Origin: Fibrobacter sp. UWT2
Lineage (GTDB): Bacteria; Fibrobacterota; Fibrobacteria; Fibrobacterales; Fibrobacteraceae
Assembly (NCBI RefSeq): GCF_900142545.1
Contig: NZ_FRBF01000006.1
Location: forward strand, 145,547 to 209,546
Direction: 5' to 3'
DNA length: 64,000 bases
In this document: piece after piece, positions 630-61,733 of the stretch
Position numbering within the stretch: position 1 is the first letter of the stretch
Layout of the letters: each line of letters begins with the position of its first letter
Notes under the pieces: model-generated
Databases searched by the model: none
Told to the model about the DNA's origin: nothing
What the model saw: only the letters and a program-made list of their open reading frames with translations
Made by a program: the position numbers and the translations under genes

Positions 630-1835
630 ATGAATAAGTTTGTGAAGTTTTGTGCCTGTGCCGCTTTTGGCGTGACCTCCGTTTTTGCCCAGCAGGGCGC
701 TCCGACGGGTGCCGCCGTTGATCCTACTGCCGATGAACAAAAGGCTCTTTCTGCCCTCAAGGGAAAACTTGAAGGTGCAATCGTGTGGGCGACTAGCCGC
801 GCGAATAGCCATCACGACATTTGGATTATGAATGCCGACGGTACGAATGCCCGCGCTCTTACGCAGGGTGACAACGTGGACTGGTTCCCGCGCATTTCGC
901 CGGATGGCTCGACGGTACTGTTTAACCGCAGCAAGGGCGGCTGGGTTCCCGAAAACGACGCGAACTACCCGGAAAAGTGGGACCTTTGGATGGTCGACAT
1001 CTCGGGCGAGAATGCCCGCAAGGTGGTCGACAACGCTACGTGGGGCACCTGGAGGCCCGACGGCAAGTCTATCGTCTTTAGCCGTGCAGGCAAGGTCTTT
1101 ACCATGGATCTCGCTTCTAAGACCGAAAAGATGATTCTCGATGGCGACAAGGCTTTCAACAAGTCCGGCGTGATTCTGCAGGAACCGAACATGAGTCCCG
1201 ATGGCAAGCACTTGGCCATTACGCTCCGCGGCTCTATGCGCGAAACGGGCGTGTGGGATTTGGAAAAATCCGTGTGGACCAAGTCCGGTGACGGTTGCCA
1301 GATCGACTGGAACTTTGACGGCTCCAAGCTTTACCGCGTGAATCCGACGGGTAACGGTGGTACCGCTGCTCCGAGCGAAATCCTCTGGTTCAGCGCCAAG
1401 GACGGTAAGCAGATTGAAAAGGTGGGCTTCTTCGGCATTCCGAAAAACGTGAAGCTGATGGACTTGCCTGGCCGCCGCAGTCATGAATATTTCCCGCGTC
1501 TTTCTCCGGATGGCAAGTGGCTCGTTTGGGGTGCAACTGACAAGGGCCACGACCACGACTTGTTCGACTACGAATTGTACATCTGGAAGATTGGCGAACC
1601 GGTGGAATCGGCAACGCGTATTACCTACCACAGCGGCAATGACCGCTGGCCGGACATTTGGCTTGGCAAGGTTCCTGTAAAGGAAACGGTGGCTGACAAG
1701 GTCGCTTCTCAGGTGAAGGACGCTGTTAACGGTGCTGCAAATGCAATTCAGTCCGGCATTAGCGAAGCCAAGATGGACGAACTCATCAAGGCCATTGATC
1801 GCTTGACCGACGCTGTAAAGTCTCTGGCAAAATAG
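630..1835 (+). CDS. TolB-like beta-propeller protein, exported
   Basis: 401 residues. A signal peptide (MNKFVKFCACAAFGVTSVFAQ) is followed by PD40/TolB-type propeller blades, recognised by DIWIMNADGTNARALT, FPRISPDGSTVLFNR, MSPDGKHLAI and FPRLSPDGKWLVWG. The last 50 residues (ADKVASQVKDAVNGAANAIQ onward) form an amphipathic helix. Such propellers usually bind proteins or peptides in the periplasm; TolB itself belongs to the Tol-Pal system, but no tol or pal gene is nearby, so a Tol role is not supported. The ATG at 630 is chosen because the signal peptide begins there. The gene stands alone between a terminator and a convergent methyltransferase. Its TAG stop supplies the first base of a four-unit heptamer repeat. 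Confidence 0.75.
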   Translation: MNKFVKFCACAAFGVTSVFAQQGAPTGAAVDPTADEQKALSALKGKLEGAIVWATSRANSHHDIWIMNADGTNARALTQGDNVDWFPRISPDGSTVLFNRSKGGWVPENDANYPEKWDLWMVDISGENARKVVDNATWGTWRPDGKSIVFSRAGKVFTMDLASKTEKMILDGDKAFNKSGVILQEPNMSPDGKHLAITLRGSMRETGVWDLEKSVWTKSGDGCQIDWNFDGSKLYRVNPTGNGGTAAPSEILWFSAKDGKQIEKVGFFGIPKNVKLMDLPGRRSHEYFPRLSPDGKWLVWGATDKGHDHDLFDYELYIWKIGEPVESATRITYHSGNDRWPDIWLGKVPVKETVADKVASQVKDAVNGAANAIQSGISEAKMDELIKAIDRLTDAVKSLAK

Positions 1836-1862
1836 TAGGCAGTAGACGGTAGACAGTAGGAA
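1835..1862 (+). repeat. Four-unit heptamer array (GTAGRCA type)
   Basis: Units are GTAGGCA, GTAGACG, GTAGACA and GTAGGAA, 28 bases in all. The first G is the last base of the TAG stop codon of the propeller gene. The array matches the one at 32,387-32,414 on the other strand. Confidence 0.8.
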
Positions 1863-1868
1863 GGATTT

Positions 1869-1902
1869 TAAGACTGTTTACTTCTAACTTCCTACTTCGA
1901 AC
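1869..1902 (-). repeat. Degenerate inverted heptamer array
   Basis: Read on the minus strand the units are GTTCGAA, GTAGGAA, GTTAGAA and GTAAACA, the last followed by a weaker GTCTTAA. The array overlaps the last codons and the TAG stop of the methyltransferase. It faces the plus-strand array, so AGTAGGAAG (1855-1863) and CTTCCTACT (1888-1896) can pair as a 9-bp stem between the two converging genes. Confidence 0.65.
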
Positions 1903-2656
1903 TGTTATCAGAACGAATCTTAAAGCACATAATGGCGTAGGCGCCGGCGACATTCATGCTCGCCTTGCGGCCAGCCATCGGGATTGTCACCTTCATTGTC
2001 GCTTCCGCCATCAGCTCGGGAGCGATTCCTAATTCTTCGTTGCCGAGAATGATGAGCCCCTTTGCGGGCCATTTGACGTCATTGATGCTAGGAATATCTT
2101 CGCCGGTTTCAAGAGCGATGATCTCGTAGCCGTTTTCCTTGTGCCACTTGACGCAATCGAATGGCGATTCCCAACGCTTGATCGGAATCCATTCCTGGCA
2201 GCCGCGGGCGGCACTCTTGACCGTCACGTGGTCAGGCCCGCAACTGTAACCGCTCAGGTGGACTCCTTCGAGTCCGAAGCAGTCCGTGCTGCGGATGATG
2301 GAACCGACGTTAAAGGCGCTGCGCAAGTTGTGCACGAGTACGGCGAACGGAAGCGGAGCTTCGTTTGCAACTTCGCGGTCCCCCGGTTCCTGCTCCAGGT
2401 AAACGTCACGTTCGAACCCGAGTCCCGCACGAGTACGGAAGGTCTTGTACAAGTCGATCATCTGGGCTTGATTCTTGCCGGTAAGACGCTCGCTTTCGGG
2501 GAGTTTCATCCATTCGGCGTAGGTCTCGAATTCACGCTTGGCGCGGGGGACATCGTCGCCCAATTGAAGGATGATGACGCGCAAAAGTTCGGCCATGCGC
2601 TTGGCCTTGGAAGTGTCTTTAGTGGCCAGAAATTTTTTCTCGGAAAACATGACCAT
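1892..2656 (-). CDS. SpoU-family (TrmH-like) RNA 2'-O-ribose methyltransferase
   Basis: About 254 residues from the ATG at 2656. The C-terminal half has the three SPOUT motifs: VLVHNLRSAFNVGSIIRSTD (motif 1, with the catalytic-type NxRSAFNVG), IILGNEELGI (motif 2) and IPMAGRKASMNVAGAYAI (motif 3). These form the knotted SAM-binding site of enzymes that methylate ribose 2'-OH in tRNA or rRNA. The N-terminal 110 residues (LATKDTSKAKRMAELLR onward) are a helical substrate-binding extension. An upstream ATG at 2746 is open but its extra 30 residues (KQTIFFTFTIYIFY) come from antisense of the neighbouring signal peptide, so I reject it. Which nucleotide is methylated cannot be read from sequence. 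Confidence 0.85.
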   Translation of the reverse strand: MVMFSEKKFLATKDTSKAKRMAELLRVIILQLGDDVPRAKREFETYAEWMKLPESERLTGKNQAQMIDLYKTFRTRAGLGFERDVYLEQEPGDREVANEAPLPFAVLVHNLRSAFNVGSIIRSTDCFGLEGVHLSGYSCGPDHVTVKSAARGCQEWIPIKRWESPFDCVKWHKENGYEIIALETGEDIPSINDVKWPAKGLIILGNEELGIAPELMAEATMKVTIPMAGRKASMNVAGAYAIMCFKIRSDNSSK

Positions 2657-2666
2657 AATGTAGAAA

Positions 2667-5363
2667 ATGTATATTGTGAATGTGAAGAATATTGTTTGCT
2701 TATTGTCTGTTCTTTTCTTTTGCCTTTGGGGCGTAGGCTGCTCCAATTCGGAATCGCTTTCTTCCGCTCAAGAAAATTCAATGCAAGATGTCCTTGCGCA
2801 GAAAGGCTTTGTGCTTGTCCAGGCAAGCGGTAATCCGGTGACGCTCGGAACAGACGACGAATCGGCTTCGGTGAAGGACCACCCTTCGATGGTTGCTAGC
2901 TTCGATTACGATTTCTGGATCGGCAAGCATGAGGTGACTTGCGGCGAGATGGGGCTGGACTGCGATGATTCCTTGCCGGCAACGGATGTGACTTATTTTG
3001 ATGCGGTCTTGTACGCGAATAAATTGAGCAAGGCAGAAGGCTTCGATACCGCCTATACTTATTCGAAGGCGACATTTGACGAAAACGGAGCCTGTACGGG
3101 ACTAGAGGATTTGCTTTTCTGGTCGTCCAAGGAGGCGTTCCGTTTGCCGACAGAAGCGGAATGGTCGTATGTGGCAAATCAAGGTTGGAATCCTGACGAT
3201 TCCTGGAATTCGAATAACTCCAATTTCAAGCTTCATAAAGTTTGCTCGTCGTATGTAGATGAACTTGGCTTGTGCGATATGGCCGGAAATGCGAAGGAAT
3301 GGGTCGAAGATGCGCTTGTGCCGTTCGTTTCCATGGAAATTCTTGACTATATCGGCGTGCAAGGGAATAGCCTGTTGGATGAACGCGTTGTAAAGGGCGG
3401 AAGCTATCGTGACGGCCCTTCCGATATGAAAATTTTCAAGCGCGGCGATATCTATACGGTTACCTCGTCATCGAAGGCGGATTATATCGGCTTTAGGCTT
3501 GCGTTTGGCGCTATCCTGAATCCCGGCAAGCTTGATAATGAAGGCCACATGAACAGTGCGGCGGTCTCGATTCTGGCACAGTCTAAAGATGTGAATCACT
3601 TTAATGCGGGCCTCCGTTCGAAACTCGTGTTCCGTAACGATGTGACCCATTCGCTGACGTATCTGTATTACCCGGCTGTCGGTGCGCCGATAACGGCGAA
3701 CTTGAATTTTGGCATTTCCGCTTACCATCCGGATATTTCTCCTGATGGAAATTGGCTTGCGTTCTGCACGGGGCTAGAAGGTGTCTCTGGACAATCGAAG
3801 GTGTATGCGTATCCGCTTGATGGAGGCAACCTTGTGGAATTGAATGTGGAACAAGCGGCAATTCCGCGGTGGCGCGTGCTTCCGGGCGGCGATACCGTAT
3901 TGGTGTATGTGACGAATGCTGGCAACAACAAGATTGATTCGACCTTCTTTGCCTCTAGCACTTGGCAGGTGAAGTTCGCGAATGGCAAGTTCGGTACTCC
4001 TGAAAAACTTTTTGATGGCGCTTATCATGGTGGCGTTTCCGAAAACGACGAATTGGCTGTGACGGGTGCAAGGCTGTTGCGCTCTCGCGTTAAAGGCGAA
4101 GATGGAATTTGGTACAATGGTGAACAGGCTTGCAATGTGTCCTTGAGCAGGGGAGGCGCAAATCGCACCTTGTTCCTTGATTTTGCAAGCAAGACCGGGA
4201 AGGCTTTTGTTGGAAGTACTTACGGCGTGCATGAACGTGCCTTTGTGGCAGATAGTGATGGCAAAATGGTGCTGTCTGTCGCTGCTCCGGAAGGCTATGC
4301 ATTCGACCATACGGAATGGGTGCTTGGCTCGGATTCCGTGTTCGTGGCAACGCTGACAAATGCAAATGGCGCTCACAAGAAAGTGGTCTTGGTAAATGCG
4401 TACACGGGAGAAATCCTCGACCTTGCCGAAGGTGATGAACTTTGGCATCCGGTAATGTGGCGCGATATTGCAGGTCGCGATTCCCTTGATCCGCTGCTGG
4501 ATTTGGACAGTGCCGGTGTTTACTATACTGCAGGCGCTCCATTCTTTGTACTTGAATTGCGTGTGCAGATGGAAAACTTCTGGAAAATGCGCGACTCTGT
4601 CACGGCAGTTGCTCTCGGGAGTTCACGTACGATGTATGGTGTTCATGCTCCGTGGGTGAAATCGCAGAAACTGTTGAATATGGCTTTTTCTTCGGGTGAC
4701 ATTTATGGAATCGATTACCTTGCCCGAAATTACGTCTTGCAACATCTGCCGAAACTCAAGTATCTTGTACTGGAAACATCGATCGACTTTTTGTGGGTGA
4801 ATGAGACCGCATCTTGGCAAATCGTATTCGGAAGTGTCCCGGGTTACCGCTACGATGAATCACATGATTTCTGGAAAGACGGCGTGCCGAAGGGCCTTGA
4901 AAAACTGGTAAGCGATGTTCCTAAGCCGCAGTCCGAAATGACAAGCCCCGCCAAGTTAGGGGAGTTCCTATTGCCTACAAATGGGTGGGGCTCGCCGAAC
5001 GTGATGCACGATACGACATTTATGCGCGCTACGGATCCGATCGTGGTGACCAATCTGGAAAAGTACAGAAACCTGGTGGAATTGGCCAAGAGCCAGGGCG
5101 TGACGGTGGTGTTCTTGATTCCTCCGCAGAACCCGGAATACGCCAAGACGGGATCGTTCGGAATCTATGGTGCTCTTCGCTCCGATGTGCAGAAAATTAT
5201 AGACGAACTTTCGTCGATGGGGGCGGTCGTTTTTGATGAAAATAACATGGGAAAACACGCCTATACAGACGACATGGCATTCAATGAGGACCACCTGAGT
5301 AAGAAGGGTGCGGAAAGGCTTTCTGCACGTCTCGATTCGCTGTTTGTTGACCTCGAAAAATAG
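2667..5363 (+). CDS. Lipoprotein with FGE-like, beta-propeller and SGNH-like domains (TIGR02171-type Fibrobacter family)
   Basis: 898 residues. A lipoprotein signal (LFFCLWGVGC, Cys25) gives an envelope location. Residues ~35-280 form a formylglycine-generating-enzyme/sulfatase-modifying fold: DFWIGKHEVTCGEM, LPATDVTYFDAVLYANKLS, FRLPTEAEWSYVAN, DMAGNAKEWVED, VVKGGSYRD, YIGFRLAF. Residues ~320-620 contain TolB-like propeller repeats (HPDISPDGNWLAFCT). The last ~260 residues resemble an SGNH/DltD-AlgX-type hydrolase: ALGSSRTMYG near 645 as block I and NEDHLSKKGAERL near 872 as the D-x-x-H block. Length, lipoprotein nature and FGE domain match the F. succinogenes paralogous family TIGR02171, whose function is unknown. 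The start lies only 10 bases from that of the divergent methyltransferase, so each promoter overlaps the other gene's 5' end. Confidence 0.8.
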   Translation: MYIVNVKNIVCLLSVLFFCLWGVGCSNSESLSSAQENSMQDVLAQKGFVLVQASGNPVTLGTDDESASVKDHPSMVASFDYDFWIGKHEVTCGEMGLDCDDSLPATDVTYFDAVLYANKLSKAEGFDTAYTYSKATFDENGACTGLEDLLFWSSKEAFRLPTEAEWSYVANQGWNPDDSWNSNNSNFKLHKVCSSYVDELGLCDMAGNAKEWVEDALVPFVSMEILDYIGVQGNSLLDERVVKGGSYRDGPSDMKIFKRGDIYTVTSSSKADYIGFRLAFGAILNPGKLDNEGHMNSAAVSILAQSKDVNHFNAGLRSKLVFRNDVTHSLTYLYYPAVGAPITANLNFGISAYHPDISPDGNWLAFCTGLEGVSGQSKVYAYPLDGGNLVELNVEQAAIPRWRVLPGGDTVLVYVTNAGNNKIDSTFFASSTWQVKFANGKFGTPEKLFDGAYHGGVSENDELAVTGARLLRSRVKGEDGIWYNGEQACNVSLSRGGANRTLFLDFASKTGKAFVGSTYGVHERAFVADSDGKMVLSVAAPEGYAFDHTEWVLGSDSVFVATLTNANGAHKKVVLVNAYTGEILDLAEGDELWHPVMWRDIAGRDSLDPLLDLDSAGVYYTAGAPFFVLELRVQMENFWKMRDSVTAVALGSSRTMYGVHAPWVKSQKLLNMAFSSGDIYGIDYLARNYVLQHLPKLKYLVLETSIDFLWVNETASWQIVFGSVPGYRYDESHDFWKDGVPKGLEKLVSDVPKPQSEMTSPAKLGEFLLPTNGWGSPNVMHDTTFMRATDPIVVTNLEKYRNLVELAKSQGVTVVFLIPPQNPEYAKTGSFGIYGALRSDVQKIIDELSSMGAVVFDENNMGKHAYTDDMAFNEDHLSKKGAERLSARLDSLFVDLEK

Positions 5364-5384
5364 CCCGTTTTTCGTTATTTTTTC

Positions 5385-5399
5385 TATCTTTTATCTTAC
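5385..5399 (+). promoter_or_regulatory. -10-like TATCTT close to the surE start
   Basis: TATCTT at 5385-5390 ends nine bases before the ATG at 5400. No purine-rich ribosome site precedes the ATG, suggesting a leaderless or nearly leaderless mRNA. Confidence 0.35.
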
Positions 5400-6203: not shown

Positions 6204-6213
6204 AGGAAAAAGA

Positions 6214-8916: not shown

Positions 8917-8964
8917 CTTCAAATTCCGCTAAATTACGCCGGATTCGGCATTTTGTAAATCTTT

Positions 8965-8993
8965 TGCCGTTGTTTCTCGGAACAACGGCATTT
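8965..8993 (+). terminator. Rho-independent terminator after gyrA
   Basis: TGCCGTTGTT pairs with AACAACGGCA around a TCTCGG loop, followed by a short T-rich stretch. Confidence 0.8.
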
Positions 8994-9067
8994 CTTATAT
9001 ATAAAGTCTGAATCGTTTTGTATGGATATAATTTTAATCCTAGGGAATATTTTGATAGGAGTCTAAA

Positions 9068-12765: not shown

Positions 12766-12791
12766 CGCCCCGCGAATGCGGGGTGTTTTTT
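12766..12791 (+). terminator. Rho-independent terminator after the GH11-CBM6 gene
   Basis: CCCCGC pairs with GCGGGG around GAAT (plus two outer pairs), followed by a T run. Confidence 0.85.
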
Positions 12792-12903
12792 GTCATGCTG
12801 AGGACACTCAGCATCGGCATCGTTTGCCTACTGTCATGCTGACGAAAGTCAGCATCAGCATTGTTTGCTTACTGTCATGCTGACGAAAGTCAGCATCAGC
12901 ATT
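12791..12903 (+). repeat. Three tandem 41-base hairpin repeats
   Basis: Copies start at 12791, 12832 and 12873, exactly 41 bases apart; the third is cut short. Each begins TGTCATGCTGA and holds a perfect 8-bp hairpin: ATGCTGAG-gaca-CTCAGCAT in copy 1 and ATGCTGAC-gaaa-GTCAGCAT in copies 2 and 3. The change at the eighth pair (G-C to C-G) is compensatory. Confidence 0.9.
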
Positions 12904-14138: not shown

Positions 14139-17100
14139 ATGCAAATAACCGACTTGAAAATCACATACCCAGACCTTCCCGTCGTTGAACATCGGGAAGA
14201 ATTTTTTGAGATGCTCGAAAAGCATCAGGTGGTGATTCTCAAGGCAGACACCGGTTCCGGAAAGTCGACGCAGCTCCCGAAATTTTTGTTAGAGTGGTTT
14301 GACAGACGAGAGACGAAAGACGAGAGACGAGAGGATGCGCCGGGCTTCAAGATCGGTGTCACGGAGCCGAGGCGTTTGGCGGCTATCTCGATCGCAGACC
14401 GCCTGCGTGAAGAACTGAAGGATGAAACTCTCGTCAGCACCAAGATTCGTTTCTGGGAGCAGGGGCAGAGCGATGCACCCATCAAGGTGATGACCGACGG
14501 TATCCTGCTGCAGGAATTCCGCCGCGATAGACTTTTCCGCCAATATTCGGCGGTCGTGATTGACGAAGCGCATGAACGCTCGTTGAATATCGACATCTTG
14601 CTGGGCATTTTCAAGACGGTTTTGCAGGCGCGCCCCGAATTCAAACTGATTGTGGCCTCGGCAACGCTCGATGCCAAGCTTTTCGAAGAATTTTACGACA
14701 ACAGCTGCGTGCTCGAAGCCGAGGGCCGCATGTACCCGGTCGACATCGAGTATTATTTTGATGCCGACGGTGGCGTGCTCGGTCGCGATATTTCGGGCAA
14801 GGGCGACTCGGGCTTGATTGAAGAAGCCCGCGACGCGATTCTCGATTTGGAATCCCGCCACCGCGACCATTTGCTTTGTTTTTTGCCGACCGAGCGCGAT
14901 ATTCAGGATTTAGCGGGGGAACTTGCGCACGAACTCGATAGCGCGACTTTCGATGTGCTCCCGCTTTTTGGGCGCATGAGTCCCGAAGAACAACGCCGCA
15001 TTTTCAAGAATTCGGGCAAGACTCGCGTGGTGCTTGCGACAAACATTGCTGAAACTTCACTCACGATTCCGGGAATCGCGTACGTGGTCGATACGGGCAT
15101 GGCCCGCATCTCGCGATACAATGCGCAGTCGAGAATCCAGGGGCTCCCGGTCGAAGAAATTTCGAAGGCGAGTGCCCGGCAGCGCACAGGGCGCGCGGGG
15201 CGCGTCAAGCCTGGCGTATGTATTCGACTTTATTCACCCGAAGATTTCGAAAAACGTGACGAGTTTACGGAGCCGGAAATCCGGCGTAGTAATCTCGCGA
15301 ACGTCGTTTTGCAATTGCGTAGCCTCGGGCTTGAACTGGAAAATTTTCCGTTCCTGCAATCGCCGCCGCATTCGGCTTTCCGTGGCGCCTACAAGACGCT
15401 TTTTGAACTCGGCGCGTTGACTGCGGATAATTCCAGCGGTCATGTGACTAAGCTTGGCCGCGAAATGACTCGGCTTCCGATGGACGTTTCGCTTTCGGCA
15501 GTGCTTTTGCGGGCCCGAGAATCCGGCGTTTTGCAGCCGGCGCTCATCGTCTGCTCGGCCCTTAGCATTCAGGACCCGCGCGTTGTCCCCGGCGAAGAGC
15601 CGGAACGCACCCGAATCCGCCAGTTGCACCGCAAGTTTGCGGGCCACAAGAGCGATTTTCTGACTTTTGTAAGTATGTGGAATGCCTTCTGCGCCGAATG
15701 GGATGGCAAATCCTGGAACAAGCTTCGCAAATTCTGTGACAAGTTCAGCATGCATTTCTTGCGTTGTCGCGAATGGATTGACCTTTACGAACAATTTGGC
15801 CGCATTCTCGACGTGAAATATGAAAATCGAGTGTGCCCGCTCGACAGTTTCCATGCGGATAACTTGCACATTGCGCTTCTTTCGGGATTTTTAGGTGGTA
15901 TTGCCCGCCGCGATATCGAAAACGGCTGCTACCGACTGGTGAGCGGTCGCGAAACGCACGTGTTCCCCGGCAGCGATTTGTACGGCAAGAGTGTGGAATG
16001 GCTCTTTAGCGCCGAAGTTCGCGAAACGAGTCGCATCTTCCTGAATAAAGGTGCCGAAATTAAGCCCGAATGGATTATGCAAGTGGCGGAACCGTTCTGT
16101 ACCCGCCGTTGGTATTCGCCGATGTGGAACCAGGAGCGCGGTTTTGTAGAAGCGGTGGAAGAAGTGAGCTTCAGGGGGCTCGTCATCAGTCGCGGTCACC
16201 GGGTGGATTACGCCCGCGTGAATCCGGACGAATGTGCCGAAATCTTCTGGCGCGAGGCGGTGGTGCTCGGGCAAATGGCCCGTCCGTTCCCCTTCATGAA
16301 GCAGAATGACCGTGTGGTCGAAGACCTGCATGGCCTCGAAGCCCGCAAACGTCAATTTGGCCTTGCTCCCAGCGAAGACGCCCTGGTAGATTATTATGTG
16401 CGCATCGCTCCGCGGGTGAATTCCATCAAGACCCTCCGCGACTATATTGCCGAACATACCGACCAGTTCCTGAAATTCGACGCCAAGTTCTGGCTGGATC
16501 AATTAGACGAGAAAACGGGCGCTGCCCTACAGACGAATGGCGAGAAGGGCTTCAATAAGATTGTCTTGCCCGAGAGCTCAAAGGCGCAACGCTCTGCCCT
16601 CAAACCTCAAACCCCATCCCTCGGCGGTTCTATAGAACAGTTCCGTGTCGAAGGGCTTGACGGCTCCAGTCGCATGGTCGTGGGTGAGATGGTCTTCGAT
16701 GCCACCAAGGAATACGACGGCATCACCTTGGAACTGCCTTACGACTTGCTCCCGCAGCTGACGCCTGCGAAACTAGCCCTTTCGATTCACCAATGGCGCG
16801 AATGGATGGCCGAATCGATTATCCGCGAAATGCCCAAGGCCGCCAAGAAGCAACTCGAAAATCGCCGAACCTTTATTGATGACGCCTTCTGCGACAAACT
16901 GAAGGCGAATCCGCACAAGGCTCCGCTCCTGCTCCTGTACGAAGTTTTTGCCGGTATCAAGCAGCTGGATTGCGATATTCCGACGGTCACGCCCGACAAG
17001 GAAAATCACCTGCGCCTGCACGCCAAGATTTTCAAGCAGGGTTTCCCGGAAAAATTTGCCGTCGAACTCAATCCCGAGTGGGGGAGCTTCAATTTGTTTG

Positions 17101-18005
17101 CCGCGGTTCGCCCGGTGGTGGTGACTTTTGGCATTGATTTTGCTTTAGACGAAATGCGTTTCGGCTGGCGTCTCGGCGAATCCGCCCTCATGACTTCGGC
17201 AGAATCCGCCTTCTGGCAAAGTTTCCGCAAGAGGGCCGAGGTTCCGGCCGAGCCTGATACGCTCATTACTGATCGACTGAACCTGCTCGAAACCGGCGGA
17301 CTTTATGCTGACGGGTTCAAGACGGCCCTGAAGGCTTGGGTGCTCAAGTCTCTCGCAGCAGACAAATTGGATGCGAACCGCTGCGTGCGTTTTTCGGGCC
17401 TCGAATTCTCCCGCGGCAAGAAAATCAACGATTTCAAGAATTTGGCGGTGTCTTCCCGCAGCGAAGATGACGAAGTGCGCCTCGCCCTGGTACGGGCGAC
17501 TTATGAGTCGTCCCTGCTCGGCGCCGAATCCTTTGTCGCTTTCTGGGACATTCTCCGCGAATTCTCGGTTGCCATGCGCCAAGGGGGCGACCATGCCCGC
17601 GACGCCCTCGGTGTCATCACGGCGAACCACAAGTCTATCAGTAAAATCGTTGCCCTCTATACTTCCGACAAGGAGACGACCCTGTTTGAACGCCTTTGCG
17701 TTCTGGGCGATATGATTCCGCCCTCAAGGCCCGAACTGTCGGTGCGCACGCTCCGTGAAAAGTTCCGCCCCTTCCTCAAGGCCCGTTTCATGAAGGACCA
17801 TGAGCTTAAAAATGCCCGCGAAATCCTTTCTAAGATAGAGCGGCTGTCGCCTGACGAAGAGGAATTCCCGGAACTGTACCTACAGGCCTGCGCCCTGCTC
17901 GAAGACTTCGAAATCCTCAAATTCAAGCGAAAAGGTGACGATTCCGAAGAAATCATCGAAGACGATGCTCTGAAAAAACTGAAGGGACGCTTCGGCCGAC
18001 TCTAA
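14139..18005 (+). CDS. hrpA: ATP-dependent RNA helicase HrpA
   Basis: 1,288 residues, typical of HrpA (about 1,300). A DEAH-box helicase: Walker A DTGSGKSTQLP (38-47), DEAH in VVIDEAHERS (near 142), SAT in VASATLD, motif V VVLATNIAETSLTIPG and motif VI ARQRTGRAGRVKPG. The helicase-associated domain and the long HrpA-specific C-terminal region follow. In E. coli HrpA acts on RNA and rescues collided ribosomes; that role is inferred here by family. Residues ~54-69 (FDRRETKDERREDAPG) between Walker A and the TEPRR motif are encoded by a four-unit heptamer repeat, a charged insert that E. coli HrpA lacks. Confidence 0.93.
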   Translation: MQITDLKITYPDLPVVEHREEFFEMLEKHQVVILKADTGSGKSTQLPKFLLEWFDRRETKDERREDAPGFKIGVTEPRRLAAISIADRLREELKDETLVSTKIRFWEQGQSDAPIKVMTDGILLQEFRRDRLFRQYSAVVIDEAHERSLNIDILLGIFKTVLQARPEFKLIVASATLDAKLFEEFYDNSCVLEAEGRMYPVDIEYYFDADGGVLGRDISGKGDSGLIEEARDAILDLESRHRDHLLCFLPTERDIQDLAGELAHELDSATFDVLPLFGRMSPEEQRRIFKNSGKTRVVLATNIAETSLTIPGIAYVVDTGMARISRYNAQSRIQGLPVEEISKASARQRTGRAGRVKPGVCIRLYSPEDFEKRDEFTEPEIRRSNLANVVLQLRSLGLELENFPFLQSPPHSAFRGAYKTLFELGALTADNSSGHVTKLGREMTRLPMDVSLSAVLLRARESGVLQPALIVCSALSIQDPRVVPGEEPERTRIRQLHRKFAGHKSDFLTFVSMWNAFCAEWDGKSWNKLRKFCDKFSMHFLRCREWIDLYEQFGRILDVKYENRVCPLDSFHADNLHIALLSGFLGGIARRDIENGCYRLVSGRETHVFPGSDLYGKSVEWLFSAEVRETSRIFLNKGAEIKPEWIMQVAEPFCTRRWYSPMWNQERGFVEAVEEVSFRGLVISRGHRVDYARVNPDECAEIFWREAVVLGQMARPFPFMKQNDRVVEDLHGLEARKRQFGLAPSEDALVDYYVRIAPRVNSIKTLRDYIAEHTDQFLKFDAKFWLDQLDEKTGAALQTNGEKGFNKIVLPESSKAQRSALKPQTPSLGGSIEQFRVEGLDGSSRMVVGEMVFDATKEYDGITLELPYDLLPQLTPAKLALSIHQWREWMAESIIREMPKAAKKQLENRRTFIDDAFCDKLKANPHKAPLLLLYEVFAGIKQLDCDIPTVTPDKENHLRLHAKIFKQGFPEKFAVELNPEWGSFNLFAAVRPVVVTFGIDFALDEMRFGWRLGESALMTSAESAFWQSFRKRAEVPAEPDTLITDRLNLLETGGLYADGFKTALKAWVLKSLAADKLDANRCVRFSGLEFSRGKKINDFKNLAVSSRSEDDEVRLALVRATYESSLLGAESFVAFWDILREFSVAMRQGGDHARDALGVITANHKSISKIVALYTSDKETTLFERLCVLGDMIPPSRPELSVRTLREKFRPFLKARFMKDHELKNAREILSKIERLSPDEEEFPELYLQACALLEDFEILKFKRKGDDSEEIIEDDALKKLKGRFGRL
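14305..14332 (+). repeat. Four-unit heptamer array (GACGARA type) inside hrpA
   Basis: Units are GACGAGA, GACGAAA, GACGAGA and GACGAGA, 28 bases. The array is translated as part of HrpA without breaking the frame. The same units occur in reverse orientation at 52,332-52,359. Confidence 0.85.
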
Positions 18006-31649: not shown

Positions 31650-32381
31650 TCATTTCTCGAATTCGACAACGCTTCGGTAGATGGGGCGACCTTCCTTGCG
31701 GTACTTCTTTTCGAAACCGGTCATGATTCCTTCAGTAGGTTCTGCGGTGTTTCGTTCCAGAATTTTGCAACCCTTAAAGTTGTCGAAAACTTCGAGTGCG
31801 ACTTCGTTGTATTCCTGGTGGTCGGTACCCCAGTAGAAAATGCGCTTGCCCGGCTTCAACACGCGGGCGACTTCAACCAGAAAATCCGGGCGCAAAAGGC
31901 GGTTCTTGTGGTGGCGTTCTTTCGGCCACGGGTCCGGGAAATACATGTGGAATGCATCTACCGTATTGTCTTTCACGCAGTCGCGCAAAAAGAAGAATAC
32001 ATCGCCGCGAAGCATGGTGGCGTTGGCGAGAGCGCCGGCCTTGTCCATCTTGCGCTGGGCAAATTTTGCCCAGGTGTAATCCCATTCGCTGCCCATGATG
32101 ACGGTATCGGGGTGCTTGGGTGCATATTCCGAAAGGAATCCGCCCTTGCCGCTTCCGATTTCAACTTCCACGCGGTCGCCCATGTTCGGGAACATGTCTT
32201 TCCAGTTAAAGTCCAACTTGTGGGGGAGTCCGTCAGGCGTTGCGATCGGCTTACGGTCGCCGTGCGTGCGGAACACGTAATGCCAAAGTCCCTTCGATTC
32301 CGGGTCTTCTTTCAAGTCGCGGTAAAATTCAGGAATGACGACTTCTTTTTCAACTTCTTCAATGTTTTCGATATCGCTCAT
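31650..32381 (-). CDS. trmB: tRNA (guanine-N7-)-methyltransferase
   Basis: 243 residues. TrmB methylates G46 in tRNA using SAM. The SAM-binding loop is VEVEIGSGKGGFL, and the hallmark segment HMYFPDPWPKERHHKNRL carries the catalytic and tRNA-contacting residues; FYWGTDHQEYNE follows, as in other TrmB proteins. The N-terminal 60 residues are variable. A four-unit heptamer array separates it from the RNase Z-like gene upstream, and no Shine-Dalgarno sequence is evident before the ATG. Confidence 0.94.
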   Translation of the reverse strand: MSDIENIEEVEKEVVIPEFYRDLKEDPESKGLWHYVFRTHGDRKPIATPDGLPHKLDFNWKDMFPNMGDRVEVEIGSGKGGFLSEYAPKHPDTVIMGSEWDYTWAKFAQRKMDKAGALANATMLRGDVFFFLRDCVKDNTVDAFHMYFPDPWPKERHHKNRLLRPDFLVEVARVLKPGKRIFYWGTDHQEYNEVALEVFDNFKGCKILERNTAEPTEGIMTGFEKKYRKEGRPIYRSVVEFEK

Positions 32382-32386
32382 AAAAC

Positions 32387-32414
32387 TTCCTACTGTCTAC
32401 TGCTTACTTCCTAC
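32387..32414 (-). repeat. Four-unit heptamer array (GTAGRMA type)
   Basis: On the minus strand the units are GTAGGAA, GTAAGCA, GTAGACA and GTAGGAA. The first G is the last base of the TAG stop of the RNase Z-like gene, just as at 1,835. Confidence 0.85.
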
Positions 32415-33301
32415 TAAACAAACACCACCACTCTATCTAAAAACTTCTCAGGGATTTCCTTTGCGACCATTTCACGAATATACTTGTCTGAATATTTCAT
32501 GGAAAAATGGGAGAGGATAATCTTTTCGCATTTCACCTGGTCGCCCATGCGGTTCAAGGCATCAGCAATCTGGCTAATGTGCGTGTGGCCCTTCTTGTGG
32601 CTCATCTCGTAGTCTTCAGGGGCAAGGAAGGTGCATTCCGTAATCAGCACTTTTGACTGGAATACGCGCTGGTTTTCCAATAGGCTTTCGCCCATGCAGT
32701 CGCCCATAAAGCTCACCAGCGGATCGTACACTTCGCGGGTGATTTCGGCACCGCTTTCGCGTAGCTGGATGATTTCGTTGGGAGTCTTTCCCAGGTATTC
32801 ATCCTTGAGTTTTTTCTTGTAATGGTAAATGGTTCCGCCCATGGCGTAAATGGAATGCTTGACTTCGAACGCTTCGAATGCCAAGTCCTTGCGGTATTCC
32901 AGGAACTGCAATTCACCTGCGTTTACGCCGGCAATTTCGGGGTAACGGAACTTGGTTTCGGGCACGCCTTCGAACATGGCCTCGGAGCGAATCCAGTCGC
33001 GGGCCCCGTCGCAAATGCGTTCGGGCATGTAGTAGATGCTTTCGCGTTCCACGCCCATCATCTTGCGCAAACTGTGATGACGCATCAGGCAACGGGCATG
33101 GTCGCCGTGGGCATGAGTCAAGAATACATGGTTCAGCGATGTCGCTGAAAGCGGGCATTCGCCCATATCAATGCAAAAATCAAGTTCGGGGAGCTGTATA
33201 TAGGTCGCAAGTCCCGAAATCGAGAAGCCGACAACGGAGGTGCACGAAGTGTCCACGTGAACTTGCTTTAGGGCGTTATGAATGAATCTGCTTTCTGCCA
33301 T
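32414..33301 (-). CDS. RNase Z-like metallo-beta-lactamase-fold hydrolase
   Basis: 295 residues. The metal motif THAHGDHARC (His63, His65, Asp67, His68) identifies the metallo-beta-lactamase fold. Further ligands are likely in FEVKHSIYAMGG, SFMGDCMGES and LSHFSMKYSD. The ECTFLAPED and GHTHISQIADA segments recall RNase Z, the tRNA 3' processing nuclease. The long variable region around 95-150 could hold an exosite. This window's tRNA lacks an encoded CCA, so a tRNA 3' nuclease would be needed; whether this protein does that job is inference. It is followed by the heptamer array and trmB. Confidence 0.75.
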   Translation of the reverse strand: MAESRFIHNALKQVHVDTSCTSVVGFSISGLATYIQLPELDFCIDMGECPLSATSLNHVFLTHAHGDHARCLMRHHSLRKMMGVERESIYYMPERICDGARDWIRSEAMFEGVPETKFRYPEIAGVNAGELQFLEYRKDLAFEAFEVKHSIYAMGGTIYHYKKKLKDEYLGKTPNEIIQLRESGAEITREVYDPLVSFMGDCMGESLLENQRVFQSKVLITECTFLAPEDYEMSHKKGHTHISQIADALNRMGDQVKCEKIILSHFSMKYSDKYIREMVAKEIPEKFLDRVVVFV

Positions 33302-52299: not shown

Positions 52300-52331
52300 A
52301 TAAAAACCACCTTGTAATATAACATAATTTC

Positions 52332-52359
52332 TCTCGTCTTTCGTCTCTCGTCTCTCGTC
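52332..52359 (-). repeat. Four-unit heptamer array (GACGARA type)
   Basis: On the minus strand: GACGAGA, GACGAGA, GACGAAA, GACGAGA, 28 bases. It sits between the divergent endA and folC starts, directly before the folC -10-like element. Confidence 0.85.
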
Positions 52360-52366
52360 TATTATC

Positions 52367-52378: not shown

Positions 52379-53674
52379 ATGCAATCGCTCGGTATGGATT
52401 ATTTGAATTCTCGGCTCATGTTCGGCATGGTGCCGGGGCTTGAATCGACACGGAAACTCTGCAACGCTCTCGGGAATCCTGAACGCTCATTCAAGACCAT
52501 CCATATCGTCGGCACGAACGGCAAGGGCTCAACGAGCTATTACCTTGCTGGCGTTTTGCAGGCACATGGTTTCAAAACGGGACTTTTCACGAGTCCGCAC
52601 CTGGTGAGCCTTCGCGAACGTATCCGTGTCAATGATATGCCCATTGATGATGCTGATCTGGATCGCTTGCTTCTTCAGGTGAAAGATGCTGCCGAGCGTG
52701 TCCAGGTGGAACCGACTTTCTTTGAAGTCCTGACTTTGGTGTCTTTCCTCTATTACGCCGAACAGGGTGTCGATGTGGTCGCTATGGAAGCGGGCATGGG
52801 CGGTCGCCTGGACAGTACGGCGGTTGCCTGCGGTAATATCGTGGTCCTCACAAGCATCGGCCTGGAACATACCGAAGTCCTGGGACCGACAGAAAGTGCC
52901 ATTCTCAAAGAAAAAATGGCGATTGTAGATGCGGATCGTCGCCGAAACAAGACTTTCGTGGTTGGTGGCCTTTCCGAAGAATTGCTTGCAGAAGCCCGTG
53001 CTTATGCAAGTGAACTCGGTGCTGAATGCCTCGTTCCCGAAATTCGGACTGACATCAGACTCCCGAATTTGGGTCGCCATTACATAGAAAACGCGAGCCT
53101 TTCCCTGACAGCCGCAGAACGCTTTATTCAGGGCAGCGATCGTCCTTATGACGAAGCTTTGGCCCTCAAGACTCTTGAAACCCGCTCCTGGGCAGGGCGC
53201 ATGCAGCAATTGACCGATAAAAATGGGGTAGTCCGCTACATCTTGGATGGGGCTCATAATTCCCATGCGGTGCGCCGCTTGGTCGAAACGCTCGCTCAGT
53301 ATTATCCGGGAGTCCAGTTCCATTGTGTATTCGGTGCCCTCAAGGATAAAGATGTGGGTGAAATGCTCAAGTTGATGTCTCCTTTTGTGAGCCACTGGCA
53401 TATCACCAAGACTCCCTACCCGCGTTTCCGTGAATTGGACGATTTGCGCTTGGAACTTTCGAACTTAGGATTGAAAGTCGCAAGCGAAGGCGAACTCAGT
53501 CGCGAATTTTTGGATCAGGTCGCTGCCACCGCTTTTGCAGAAAATGAAAAGATTCCTGTTCTTGTAACGGGAAGCTTGTATATGATCGGTGAAACGGTGC
53601 AGGTTCTCAAGGACGATTTTGACGGTTTAGCGTTTTTCCGTGGGCTAGAACCCTCGACTAATGAACACCGCTAA
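52379..53674 (+). CDS. folC: Folylpolyglutamate synthase / dihydrofolate synthase
   Basis: 431 residues. FolC adds glutamate to dihydropteroate and folates. The Mur-ligase-type P-loop is IVGTNGKGST (44-52), and the family segments TGLFTSPHLVSLRERI, VVAMEAGMGGRLDSTAV, LTSIGLEHTEVLGPT, LDGAHNSHAVRRLVETL and VFGALKDKD are all present. The TSPHL and DGAHN motifs identify FolC. No other folate genes are adjacent; the V-ATPase operon follows after 269 bases. Confidence 0.95.
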   Translation: MQSLGMDYLNSRLMFGMVPGLESTRKLCNALGNPERSFKTIHIVGTNGKGSTSYYLAGVLQAHGFKTGLFTSPHLVSLRERIRVNDMPIDDADLDRLLLQVKDAAERVQVEPTFFEVLTLVSFLYYAEQGVDVVAMEAGMGGRLDSTAVACGNIVVLTSIGLEHTEVLGPTESAILKEKMAIVDADRRRNKTFVVGGLSEELLAEARAYASELGAECLVPEIRTDIRLPNLGRHYIENASLSLTAAERFIQGSDRPYDEALALKTLETRSWAGRMQQLTDKNGVVRYILDGAHNSHAVRRLVETLAQYYPGVQFHCVFGALKDKDVGEMLKLMSPFVSHWHITKTPYPRFRELDDLRLELSNLGLKVASEGELSREFLDQVAATAFAENEKIPVLVTGSLYMIGETVQVLKDDFDGLAFFRGLEPSTNEHR

Positions 53675-54546: not shown

Positions 54547-54552
54547 GAAACG

Positions 54553-55101: not shown

Positions 55102-55118
55102 CCGGAGGTCCATTTTCA

Positions 55119-58170: not shown

Positions 58171-58171
58171 T

Positions 58172-58804
58172 ATGGCGAAGGTCAAGTTAACTAAAAACGC
58201 CCTCAAGGCGGAACGCGACGCATTGAAGCGCTTCCAGCGCTATCTGCCGACGTTGCTTTTGAAAAAGCAGCAACTGCAGATGGAAATGCGCACGCTCCAG
58301 GAGAGGGTGATGGCCAAGCGAGCCGAGGAGGACAAGCTCCGTAAGGGCATGGCTTCCTGGATTTCGCTGTTTGCCGAACCCATCGAATGGTCAAAGTACC
58401 TGTCGGTGAAGGAAGTGCGCCAGGGCGAAGGCAATATCGCCGGCGTGAAGATTCCGACATACGACGGGGTAGACTTTAATATCGCCATTCCGGATTTCTT
58501 CACCACGCCCGTGTGGCTGGACGACGGTATCAGAAGCCTTCAGGGCCTGATTTCGCTGCGCCTGGAACGCCGCGTGCTCGAAAAGCAGTACGAACTCCTC
58601 TCCAAGGAATTGCGTACTACAAGCCAGCGCGTGAACCTGTTTGAAAAGGTGAAGATTCCCGAAGCGAAGGAAAATATTCGCGTTATCAACATCTTCCTGG
58701 GCGACCAGCAGACGTCCGGCGTTGCCCGCAGCAAGCTTGCTAAGGGTAAGGCTACCGCCCGTACCGCAGCCCAGGATGCACTCGCGAAGGAGGCCGCCGC
58801 ATGA
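58172..58804 (+). CDS. atpD: V-type ATP synthase subunit D
   Basis: 210 residues, one base after the B stop. The two long helices of the rotor shaft are visible: N-terminal KVKLTKNALKAERDALKRFQRYLPTLLLKKQQLQMEMRTL and C-terminal SLRLERRVLEKQYELLSKELRTTSQRVNLFEKVKIPEAKENI. The VNLFEKVKIP segment is diagnostic. The stop overlaps the start of subunit I (ATGA). The partner subunit F, expected beside D, has no gene in this operon. Confidence 0.93.
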   Translation: MAKVKLTKNALKAERDALKRFQRYLPTLLLKKQQLQMEMRTLQERVMAKRAEEDKLRKGMASWISLFAEPIEWSKYLSVKEVRQGEGNIAGVKIPTYDGVDFNIAIPDFFTTPVWLDDGIRSLQGLISLRLERRVLEKQYELLSKELRTTSQRVNLFEKVKIPEAKENIRVINIFLGDQQTSGVARSKLAKGKATARTAAQDALAKEAAA

Positions 58805-60729
58805 TTACTCCTATGAAGAAAGTGACGGTGCTGACGGTTGCAGGTGCGGTTGAAGAGACGCTCCAGGCGCTTCGTACGCTTGAAATTTTGCACCTCACGC
58901 CTTTGCAGGCGGCTGCAGGTGCCAAGCTGAACAAGGCCCGCGGCGAAATGAACCGCGTGCAGAAGGCCTTGGAAGTGGTGCCCGAAAAAGCCCCGAAGGG
59001 TGTGACTCCCGTGAAGGAAGCCGCTCCGGCAGCAAGCCTTATCGATGAAATCCAGAACCTGGTTGCCGAAAGCAAGCAGGCGGAAATCGACAAGGAACAG
59101 GCCGAAGAGGAACTCACTAAACTTTCCATGTTCAAGAACCTGGACCCCGCAACGGCAGCTGCCTTGCAGGCGAAGGGTATCTATGTCAAACTTTACCAGC
59201 TCCATGACGGTAAAATCCCGTTCGAACTCGAGGGCGAAGGCTCTATCGAAGAATTCGGTCAGGATGAAAATGGCAAGTATGTGGCTGTCTTGAGCAGGGG
59301 AGAAGCCCCTGTCGCCGTGAAGGGAAACTTCACCGAACTCACCATGCCGCAGAAGTCGCTTGCCGAATACCGCGAAATGGAAGCGAAAGCCAAGGAAACG
59401 CTTGCCCGCGTTGAAAAACGCCTGGGTGAACTTTCGGGCGTCAGGGAATCTATCGAAGACAAGCTCCTCGAAGTGGGTGACGACTACCGCATGGTCGAAG
59501 CCGAAGCCTCGATGGTGGGCGACAAGAACGTCGCTGCCGTGCAGGGTTTCTGCCCCGCACCGCGCGTCGGCGAACTCGAGAAGGCTGCCCGCGAACACGG
59601 CTGGGGCCTCCTGGTGGATGACCCCGCTGAAGACGACGATATCCCGACGCTGTTGACCTACAGCAAGCTCAGCCGTCCCATGCAGTTCCTGTACGACATC
59701 ATCGGCATTTCGCCGGGGTACAAGGAAGTGGACGTGTCGGCCGTGTTCCTTTGCTTCTTCAGCATCTTCTTTGCGATGATCGTGGGCGACTCGGCTTACG
59801 GCCTGTTGTTCCTCGGTCTGGCACTCTTTGCCCGCTCCAAGATGCCGAAGGCGAACCCTGCTGGTTTCCACTTTATCTACCTCATGAGCATCGCCACCAT
59901 CGTGTGGGGTGTCATCAACGCAAGCTTCCTCGGACTTTCTCCGGCGCTTGCGGGGTGGACGTATTACCTGGACATCACCAACTACGGCTGGTTGCCTGAA
60001 CCGCTGAAGAATGCGATGCTCTGGATTCGCACAAGCGCCCCGACTGACCCGGCGAAGTTCGAAGCCTACAAGGCCTTCGCCCAGTCAATTACGCTGCTGC
60101 CCGATAGCTTCGTGCCGAAGGCGGCGGGTGCTTCCCAGATGCAGCATATCCAGCTGTTCTGCTTCTGCATCGCCGTGGTCCACTTGAGTATTGCCCATAT
60201 CTGGAACGTCTGCGTGCGCATCAAGCGCAAGGACTCCACGTTCATGGCGCAGGTGGGCTGGCTTATCGGCTGTTGGGTGATGTTCTTCCTTGCGTGCCAG
60301 ATGGTGCTCGGTATCGATATGCCGAAGTTCGTCATCCCGATGTTCATCGTGGAAGCCGTTCTCCTGGTGCTCTTTACCGTTCCGCCGAAGCGCCTCAAAC
60401 AGGACTTCATCAGCATCCCGATGCTCGTGCTCGACGTGGTGAACAGCTTTACCGACGTGATCAGTTACATCCGTCTGTTTGCTGTGGGCATGTCCGGTGC
60501 GGCCATTGCCGAAGCGTTCAACGACATGCTCTCGCCGCTGTTCGGCTCCGCTGTCGGTATCGCCGGTGCAGCCTTCCTGCTGCTCTTTGTGCATGGCCTG
60601 AATATCGCGCTTGCGGTCATGGGCGTCGCCGTCCACGCCGTACGTCTTAACACACTCGAATTTTCAAATGGACTTGGCCAGGAATGGAGCGGATTTGCCT
60701 TCGCCCCCTTCGCCAAGCAGAAAAATTAA
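58801..60729 (+). CDS. atpI: V-type ATP synthase subunit I (a-type)
   Basis: 642 residues. The N-terminal half (~1-310) is a cytoplasmic coiled-coil arm; the C-terminal half holds about eight membrane helices (FLCFFSIFFAMIVGDSAYGLLFLGLALF, AGFHFIYLMSIATIVWGVINASFLG, LNIALAVMGVAVHAVRLNTLEF). The block FTDVISYIRLFAVGMSGAAIAEAFN carries the arginine that releases the ion, and VHAVRLNTLEFSNG is the conserved final helix. It is the stator channel that passes protons or sodium to the K ring. It overlaps D by four bases. Confidence 0.93.
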   Translation: MITPMKKVTVLTVAGAVEETLQALRTLEILHLTPLQAAAGAKLNKARGEMNRVQKALEVVPEKAPKGVTPVKEAAPAASLIDEIQNLVAESKQAEIDKEQAEEELTKLSMFKNLDPATAAALQAKGIYVKLYQLHDGKIPFELEGEGSIEEFGQDENGKYVAVLSRGEAPVAVKGNFTELTMPQKSLAEYREMEAKAKETLARVEKRLGELSGVRESIEDKLLEVGDDYRMVEAEASMVGDKNVAAVQGFCPAPRVGELEKAAREHGWGLLVDDPAEDDDIPTLLTYSKLSRPMQFLYDIIGISPGYKEVDVSAVFLCFFSIFFAMIVGDSAYGLLFLGLALFARSKMPKANPAGFHFIYLMSIATIVWGVINASFLGLSPALAGWTYYLDITNYGWLPEPLKNAMLWIRTSAPTDPAKFEAYKAFAQSITLLPDSFVPKAAGASQMQHIQLFCFCIAVVHLSIAHIWNVCVRIKRKDSTFMAQVGWLIGCWVMFFLACQMVLGIDMPKFVIPMFIVEAVLLVLFTVPPKRLKQDFISIPMLVLDVVNSFTDVISYIRLFAVGMSGAAIAEAFNDMLSPLFGSAVGIAGAAFLLLFVHGLNIALAVMGVAVHAVRLNTLEFSNGLGQEWSGFAFAPFAKQKN

Positions 60730-60768
60730 ACCAAGGGATAATTCCCGCTACTTAATGAGGAAAAAACA

Positions 60769-61224
60769 ATGGAACCGAATACAATGGTGACTCTCGCTAA
60801 AATGGGTGCTGCAGCTGCGCTTGGCATTGCGGCTATGGGCTCTGCCCTTGGTTGCGGAACGGCTGGTATGTCCGCCATCACGATGTGGAAGAAGGCTTAT
60901 GCCCAGGGCAAGTCCGCCCTCTTCACACTCCTGGTGTTCGTGGGTGCCCCGATTTCCCAGACGATTTACGGCATGTTGCTCATGAACTTCATCCTGAGCA
61001 AGGCTGCTGAATCCGGCTTTACCAACTGGGGCGGCTGCCTCGGCGCCGGTATCTTTGGCGGTCTCGGCATGATGGCTTCTGCCTGGTATCAGGGCAAGTC
61101 CGCTGCTGTGGCTTGCGATGCTCTCGGTGAAACCGGCAAGGGCATGGTGAACTACCTCATGGTGCTCGGTATCGTGGAAACCGTGGCCCTGTTCGTTCTC
61201 GTGTTCTCCATGATGGTGCTCTAA
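60769..61224 (+). CDS. atpK: V-type ATP synthase subunit K (proteolipid), copy 1
   Basis: 151 residues, four membrane helices in two hairpins, forming the c-type ring. The ion-binding glutamate is Glu137 (IVETVALFV) in helix 4; helix 2 carries Ser63-Gln64 (PISQTIYG), and helix 3 Gln108 (WYQGKSAA). These match Thr64, Gln65, Gln110 and Glu139 of the sodium-binding Enterococcus hirae NtpK, with a conservative Ser for Thr. Helix 2 has no glutamate, so one ion is bound per four helices. GAGG lies upstream of the ATG. A second, divergent copy follows. Confidence 0.93.
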   Translation: MEPNTMVTLAKMGAAAALGIAAMGSALGCGTAGMSAITMWKKAYAQGKSALFTLLVFVGAPISQTIYGMLLMNFILSKAAESGFTNWGGCLGAGIFGGLGMMASAWYQGKSAAVACDALGETGKGMVNYLMVLGIVETVALFVLVFSMMVL

Positions 61225-61242
61225 TCCAGCGAGGTAACACGT

Positions 61243-61698
61243 ATGGATCAAGCTCAACTTTTAACGCTCGCGAAACTCGGCGCGGTGGCGGCCTTGGGCC
61301 TTGCCGCGGTGGGTTCTGCGCTAGGCTGCGGGACTGCCGGCATGGCGGCCATCGGAGCCTGGAAGAAGGCGTATCTCAAGGGTAAGAACGCGCTGTTTAC
61401 GTTGCTCATCTTCGTGGGCGCGCCGATTGCGCAGACAATCTACGGTATGTTGCTGATGATGTACATCCTGAACAAGTCCCAGGCGGCTCCGGCCAACTGG
61501 GCTGCATACCTGGGTGTGGGCATCTTCGGTGGCATCGGCATGATGGCCAGCGCCTGGTATGTGGGCAAGTCCGCTGCGGACGCCTGCAACGCCCTCGGCG
61601 AAACCGGCAAGGGCCTCGTGAACTACCTGATGGTGCTTGGCGTCGGCGAAACCGTTGCCCTGTTCGTCATGGTGTTCTCCATGATGCTGGTGAGTTAG
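61243..61698 (+). CDS. V-type ATP synthase subunit K (proteolipid), copy 2
   Basis: 151 residues, ending the operon 18 bases after copy 1, from which it derives by tandem duplication. It keeps the helix-4 glutamate (Glu136, VGETVALFV) and Gln64 (PIAQTIYG) but has Ala63 for the Ser/Thr and Val107 for the helix-3 glutamine (WYVGKSAA). Two of the ligands that bind sodium in NtpK are therefore lost. Mixed rings with copy 1 are possible. Its TAG stop supplies the first base of a GACGAAA heptamer. Confidence 0.92.
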   Translation: MDQAQLLTLAKLGAVAALGLAAVGSALGCGTAGMAAIGAWKKAYLKGKNALFTLLIFVGAPIAQTIYGMLLMMYILNKSQAAPANWAAYLGVGIFGGIGMMASAWYVGKSAADACNALGETGKGLVNYLMVLGVGETVALFVMVFSMMLVS

Positions 61699-61733
61699 AC
61701 GAAAGAACGCTTCGCTACAGACGAAAGACGAAA
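61698..61733 (+). repeat. Interrupted heptamer array (GACGARA type)
   Basis: GACGAAA begins on the last base of the TAG stop at 61,698. After a 15-base interruption two more GACGAAA units follow at 61,720 and 61,727. Confidence 0.7.

Follow-up and report, generated by a model that had tools for sequence, protein, structure and literature searches.

Short tandemly repeated repetitive (STRR) sequences are degenerate tandem heptamers found between genes of heterocystous cyanobacteria. Heptameric direct repeats of the TAACTGA type, known from Beggiatoaceae, Cyanobacteria and Bacteroidetes, are mostly intergenic, occur in few copies and carry an AG/CT step every 7 nucleotides (nt); according to PMC4679880 their orientation is tied to gene edges in one genome, strains differ by 7-nt insertions or deletions, and no mechanism of transfer is said to be evident. 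The intervening sequence (IVS) of 23S rRNA genes is a small insertion with inverted repeats that encodes the S23p protein, also called IVP, and is termed selfish in PMC4990558, which also places heptamers just upstream of the S23p open reading frame (ORF) of the Coxiella IVS and describes Xanthomonas S23p as a toroidal homopentamer whose function is not known. The IVP domain is likewise called functionally uncharacterised in PMC11270868. Here we report on heptamer arrays in a 64,000-nt stretch of Fibrobacter sp. UWT2 (the window, G000:C6:145547-209546, G000 being its genome), and on their likeness to the ends of an element elsewhere in that genome whose single gene encodes a protein of the S23p family (S23).

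The element is an insertion of ~440 bp at about 140,100-140,557 of G000:C5, bounded at both ends by inverted arrays of the unit AGTAGRM, one of AC type and one of GGA type. It came to light when a 20-kb G000 stretch, picked for array richness, was compared with seven relatives: it is present in G000, G044 and G040, and a 13-bp spacer stands in its place in G079, G077, G076, G004 and G016. Its ORF (G000:C5:140140-140508, 122 amino acids) is the only one of more than 30 amino acids lying wholly within the element, matches 23S_rRNA_IVP (PF05635, E 8e-39) and TIGR02436, and belongs to the S23 four-helix-bundle family; judged by the sequence it may start at a GTG on the inner edge of one array, and it stops just before the opposite array. 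The AGTAGRM arrays dispersed through G000 match these ends in unit and in inward orientation, and we regard them as probably solo ends and internally deleted copies of the element, in the manner of miniature inverted-repeat transposable elements (MITEs). At a second site an 81-bp inverted array pair is present in G000, G044 and G040 and 2 bp stand in its place in G079, G077 and G076; the site is different again in G004 and G016. Thirteen hand-picked inverted pairs from various loci fold with z-scores of -1.4 to -5.3, whereas two solo arrays do not. All seven AGTAGRM inverted pairs without an ORF combine one GGA-rich with one AC-rich arm (p 0.03). The S23 element ends in the same two ways, a likeness suggestive of internal deletion. 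The S23 ORF has no match among transposase or reverse transcriptase families, and the element holds no transposase or recombinase ORF, so host replication or repair may do the cutting and joining of DNA.

Set beside the rRNA intervening sequences, the element shares the S23p gene and the inverted complementary ends, although the window arrays have no such ORF and folding was seen for the hand-picked pairs other than the S23-bearing form. It differs in that its ends on both sides are arrays of about four heptamers, in that array families without an ORF are dispersed in tens of copies, and in that it lies between protein genes rather than in rRNA genes; for the S23-bearing form this holds at one slot, in 17/17 loci of the two nearest S23 types. 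Like the TAACTGA repeats, the Fibrobacter arrays are direct repeats of heptamers that lie mostly between genes, are oriented to gene edges, have an AG step every 7 nt and vary by 7-nt indels. The TAACTGA repeats differ from the G000 arrays in unit (no search aimed at TAACTGA was made in G000; a TAACTGA-like array does occur in L097), and Fibrobacter shows a peak at exactly four units in G000 and many families in one genus; the accessible part of PMC4679880 names no S23 gene for those repeats. With MITEs the dispersed pairs share short, ORF-less bodies and inverted ends resembling those of an ORF-bearing element, here only putatively autonomous, while the tandem arrays at the ends and the lack of any transposase or target duplication found set them apart; the missing transposase or recombinase also separates the S23 element from transposons and insertion sequences. 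Cyanobacterial plasmid S23 genes are flanked by heptamers as well, and a link to STRR itself would follow by extension. According to the original prediction no heptamer repeats were known to have been described in Fibrobacter, and we found no such report in the open-licence literature, a search that was incomplete and left subscription papers outside it. Nor did a search by title or start of abstract return an open-licence paper tying S23 genes to dispersed heptamer arrays, although that search was incomplete too, having missed PMC4990558 and not covered subscription papers.

The original prediction, made from the window alone, had described arrays of exactly four units and 28 bases in two sequence families, fixed in length and in phase with stop codons. 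Each array is present within a few nt of the position then given, and we redrew the boundaries as AG plus four heptamers ending on AG, that is, 30 nt with five AG steps 7 nt apart. Chance was gauged by searching the same genome for the same pattern read backwards. Three units of GTAGRMR (GTAGRMRGTAGRMRGTAGRM) give 183 overlapping matches in G000 and none reversed, and the GACGARA equivalent gives 21 and none. Scanned for periodicity, 67 loci of the Fibrobacter group that had been collected around an unrelated gene (1.2 Mb) gave 95 arrays of period 7 against 0 to 4 at periods 4, 5, 8, 10, 11 and 13, with 18 to 34 at the coding-type periods 6, 9 and 12 and 73 and 56 at the multiples 14 and 21. 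Five successive AG steps form 76 clusters at 7-nt spacing compared with 1, 3, 1, 9 and 1 at spacings of 5, 6, 8, 9 and 10. These reversed controls and the prominence of 7 in the period scans rule out a chance origin, as the original prediction had suggested. Merging the 89 four-unit GTAGRMR matches of G000 by hand gave 68 arrays of at least four units, of which 60 have four strict units, one has five, four have six, two have seven and one has ten. The predicted peak at four is thus real in G000, which supports a fixed length; in G040 and G044 the distribution is broader, at 3 to 14 units. Among the 66 arrays that were extracted with flanks and aligned, 58 have four units, and in 54 of these an A precedes the first GTAG.

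Two families proved far too few for the genus. G000 alone has units of the types GTAGRMR, GACGARA and GTGGTTA, and a TTGATRA family occurs in 29/80 Fibrobacter genomes with none in G000. GTAGRMR itself has at least one match in 59/80 Fibrobacter genomes, with counts from 0 to 320, and is rare outside the genus (of 167 genomes from the phylum 65 have a match, and 59 of the 65 belong to Fibrobacter). In G030 and G032 the reversed GTAGRMR control matches 25 and 11 times, and these genomes may therefore carry a further heptamer family.

PF05635 genes are present in 53/80 Fibrobacter genomes, in 1-4 copies, and absent from 27. Searching with the G000 protein (tblastn, at most the best 30 loci per search, which favours top matches) and excluding short, duplicate and edge-cut matches yielded 32 distinct S23 genes, whose loci occupy a handful of common slots. 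A flank was scored as carrying an array when its 7-periodicity reached at least 15/21. By this measure arrays lie upstream of 25 of the 32 genes, downstream of 14, on both sides of 10 and on either side of 29, compared with 97, 78, 19 and 156 (97+78-19) of 868 control genes (Fisher p 3e-17 upstream and 9e-9 for both sides, values too small by an unknown factor since S23 genes are not independent). The two arms of one gene are alike in 9/10 cases, compared with ~20% when arms are mismatched. Twenty plasmid S23 loci from cyanobacteria and others (20/25 matches, with H13, H21 and H23-H25 left out, and with near duplicates in L398/L413 and L405-L408) gave 14 upstream, 11 downstream, 9 on both sides and 16 on either side, against 2, 2 and none on both sides for 117 plasmid control genes; in L409 and L411, which have no annotation, S23 was placed by match coordinates. 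Octamer-like arrays of period 8 stand at the S23 genes of Gemmatirosa, Leptolyngbya, Picosynechococcus and Nostoc edaphicum (L409, L410, L404 and L415:36462-36848), so the spacing may vary with S23 lineage. As a separate observation, S23 on the cyanobacterial plasmids L397, L402 and L404 sits between cas6 and cas4 or beside cas10 in a type III-B CRISPR operon.

At the one orthologous slot where a count was possible, the heptamer family goes with the S23 lineage in 17/17 cases. S23 proteins of at least 79% identity have AGTAGRM on both sides in 10/10 loci, and those of 59-64% identity have AGTGGTT units in 7/7, with 4-5 downstream and 1-2 upstream; one of these seven, G039, also has a single AGTAGRM unit. 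The cut at 79% was chosen after the gap between 79% and 64% was visible. The ten genomes with S23 at or above it hold 120-320 GTAGRMR matches (median 191) and the other 70 a median of 3 (Mann-Whitney p 3e-7). Ranked by their number of AGTAGRM arrays, 10 of the top 12 genomes have AGTAGRM-type S23, and none of the 27 genomes lacking PF05635 exceeds 34 GTAGRMR matches.

Several observations weigh against deriving the dispersed arrays from S23 elements. G067 (280 matches) and G066 (121) are rich in arrays and have no near S23, and S23 copies are few, 0-4 per genome. All 17 S23 genes of the two nearest types lie in one orthologous slot, from which it follows that the S23-bearing form itself moves little. 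By eye, no target site duplication is visible at the compared filled and empty sites. Solo arrays are not exact copies of a source end and have nearly random unit order, and searching 417 loci for the exact 30-mer of the AC end found it at S23 loci only (10 loci, five distinct sites). Strong inverted partners (z below -4) stand beside only 2/66 G000 arrays, a count that also rejects a hairpin as the general unit. We identified no S23 partner for GACGARA, the family of two of the window's four arrays (the only S23 of G000 matches AGTAGRM), nor for the TTGATRA and AATGTG families. Among 19 diverged representatives, S23 identity and array similarity were not significantly correlated (Mantel rho 0.095, p 0.12). 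Of the plasmid loci, L403 has no array and L404, L409 and L410 have period 8 instead of heptamers. An excess of arrays whose first and last units are equal, which in G000 (below) fits the AC and GGA end types of the element, is absent from 23 arrays of other genomes. Finally, all the statistics take related genomes and common slots as independent and ignore kinship, with no correction for phylogeny.

Arrays are polar with respect to genes. Gene calls for G000 and its relatives come from a simple purpose-made script, so that starts are approximate. In 28 G000 arrays the 5′ end of the AG strand points towards a stop codon; 25 of them lie within 5 nt of it, the remaining three being 13, 722 and 790 nt away, whereas only 4/25 AG-strand 3′ ends facing a stop come as close. 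When many families are pooled, 26/81 of the 5′ ends but 6/79 of the 3′ ends have a gene edge within 12 nt. Seven of the 25 near-stop arrays are in the TA|GTAG phase and five have the stop within the first unit. The AG strand starts flush at gene edges, and the rule is one of proximity and not of phase; the proposed association with stops survives in the former sense and fails in the latter. Between tandem genes in G000 the two orientations relative to transcription are about equally common (20 versus 19), and the mix of gene arrangements around arrays resembles that of intergenic gaps overall. Where the 5′ end faces a gene start it often abuts a -10-like motif resembling TAnnTTTG, judged by eye, and upstream of genes TATATTT has a strand bias of 24 to 1. 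A TTTCTATATTTG-like motif likewise shows strong strand bias upstream of genes in the window and other G000 stretches. We take this motif to be close to the TAnnTTTG promoter of Bacteroidota.

In the window, an AGTAGRM array on the forward strand at 1834..1863, (AG-N5)x4 + AG, lies flush against the TAG stop codon that closes the gene at 630-1835 and is separated by a 10-nt spacer from a degenerate inverted 30-nt AGTNNNN array at 1874..1903 on the reverse strand, both between convergent genes. The two arms fold together (-23.1 kcal/mol, z -2.8); in G076 and G077 the first has three units and the second two, not four. The 30-nt AGTAGRM array at 32386..32415 (reverse strand) lies between the gene at 32414-33301(-), at its TAG stop, and the start of the gene at 31650-32381(-), and one of its units, GTAAGCA, deviates from GTAGRMA; arrays can supply a Shine-Dalgarno-like GGAAG. 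Of the two complete AGACGAR arrays, both 30 nt, that at 14304..14333 (forward) lies in frame within an HrpA-like DEAH helicase gene (14139-18005) and that at 52331..52360 (reverse) between divergent genes, adjoining the promoter-like motif TAAATTTG of the gene at 52379-53674(+). The interrupted AGACGAA array at 61697..61735 (forward), one unit followed by an interruption of ~13 nt and two further units, begins where the gene at 61243-61698 ends, on its TAG stop. The Gs at 1835, 32414 and 61698 are, as predicted, the third bases of TAG stops.

What occupies these places in relatives changes readily, and other Fibrobacter species have unrelated heptamer families at orthologous sites. At the 32386-32415 slot, the content of 30 orthologous loci ranges from heptamer arrays, of no fewer than seven families, through palindromic repeats to nearly nothing, the families at such slots being assigned by eye. 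Within the helicase gene, 30 loci have AGACGAR in G000 and G051, AGTAGRM in G079, G044 and G040, and other inserts or ~9 nt in the rest; the AGTAGRM version has GTCG as its third unit exactly where GTAG would be an in-frame stop. Immediately upstream of the helicase gene, the genes overlap in some genomes, and in others the stop and the start are separated by an inverted array pair. The 52331-52360 array is the same in G079 but for one substitution, with a CATTACA array there in G044, G077 and G040. Between relatives there are unit-step indels of 7 and 14 bp (including G040 versus G044) and a 57-bp inverted pair that is present or absent; a script listing indels gave little.

Such unit steps, among them the 3-to-4 and 2-to-4 differences at 1834-1903 and those of +7 and +14 that distinguish G040 from G044, are what plain heptamer microsatellites would produce, with replication slippage by 7 nt making and unmaking arrays that are kept where harmless; arrays of up to 14 units exist, and slippage is the explanation quoted for heptamers in PMC4679880. 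As a source of the arrays we nevertheless think it unlikely. A single unit lexicon recurs at dozens of sites, entire array pairs are present or absent, numbers fall from 60 four-unit arrays to one with five, and arrays flank S23 genes. Moreover, in the 58 four-unit arrays of G000 adjacent identical units are too rare (31 seen versus 47.5 expected) and first and last units too often equal (31/58 versus 15.7 expected), while whole-array pairs are identical no more often than chance allows (35 versus 31), unit order being near random; together these point neither to slippage nor to simple copying, and copy-paste of a single master array is unsupported. Slippage changes the number of units and is not the origin of arrays; of the two sources offered in the original prediction for a dedicated origin, slippage and a mobile element, the mobile element fits. 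Local birth from a stop codon alone, considered because the first unit often starts with the stop at compared slots, also fails, the same families being dispersed through genomes.

The arrays might instead be binding sites at gene edges for a host nucleic-acid-binding protein acting in translation, termination or insulation, and MacGregor proposed a role of regulatory type for the TAACTGA repeats. The flush 5′ ends at stops and at gene edges of many families, together with the Shine-Dalgarno-like GGAAG, speak for this, but the even split of orientations to transcription, the ordinary mix of gene arrangements, the arrays inside the helicase gene and the swapping of families at orthologous slots do not, and we hold a regulatory account to be improbable. 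Less credible by far is telomerase-like synthesis, in which the DNA to be inserted would come from repeated copying of a short RNA template by a bacterial reverse transcriptase. The AG strand does read outward like a telomeric G-strand, a fixed set of units recurs in random order, PMC12632851 reports a defence reverse transcriptase whose product is tandem-repeat DNA, and RVT_1 is found in some array-rich genomes (G018, G067, G054, G008). Yet RVT_1 (PF00078) occurs in only 18/80 genomes and has no match in array-rich G000, G040, G044, G005, G012 and G059, which largely refutes a resident reverse transcriptase of that family as the source.

A possible link between S23 and the arrays is suggested by the geometry of protein and DNA. 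The S23 relatives 2gsc and 2rld each list five chains in the solved structure, and S23 would form a five-subunit ring like its solved relative. An array has five AG steps and a ring would have five subunits, numbers that suggest one array per ring; the array, with its AG steps 7 nt apart, would wrap around the ring with one AG per subunit. TRAP, which binds repeated (G/U)AG in RNA, serves as the model for this arrangement. Binding to the end sequence of its own element would enable S23 to mark or protect the element's copies or to carry them. Insertions would persist in the least harmful places (stop codons, the regions upstream of promoters, and permissive loops of proteins), which would account for the position of arrays at gene edges; once in place, arrays gain and lose units of 7 or 14 bp. 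More tentatively, and with the balance of doubt against it, we propose a new kind of mobile element whose sole gene encodes a toroidal five-subunit S23/IVP protein and whose ends are five-AG arrays, one AG per subunit. The heptamer arrays that occur in Fibrobacter, cyanobacteria and others would be its solo ends, with every S23 lineage driving a heptamer family of its own, and the rRNA intervening sequences would be the element's ribosomal-gene branch. Two old puzzles meet here, the spread of bacterial heptamer arrays and the function of the S23/IVP family, and if S23 recognises the arrays that flank it, both could be tested by one binding experiment. Such recognition would also give a class of short intergenic repeats in several phyla a source and a recognition protein.

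Other repeats share the neighbourhood of the arrays. Immediately 3′ of the interrupted array, at 61737-61765 of the window, lies GTCATTGCGACGTAGCGAAGCAATCT, a palindromic sequence of dispersed-repeat type, and slots with heptamer arrays also hold other palindromic repeats in relatives. At 12791-12903 the window has 2.8 copies of a 41-bp tandem repeat with GTCATGCTGA...TCAGCATC palindromes, which is different or absent in the relatives compared.

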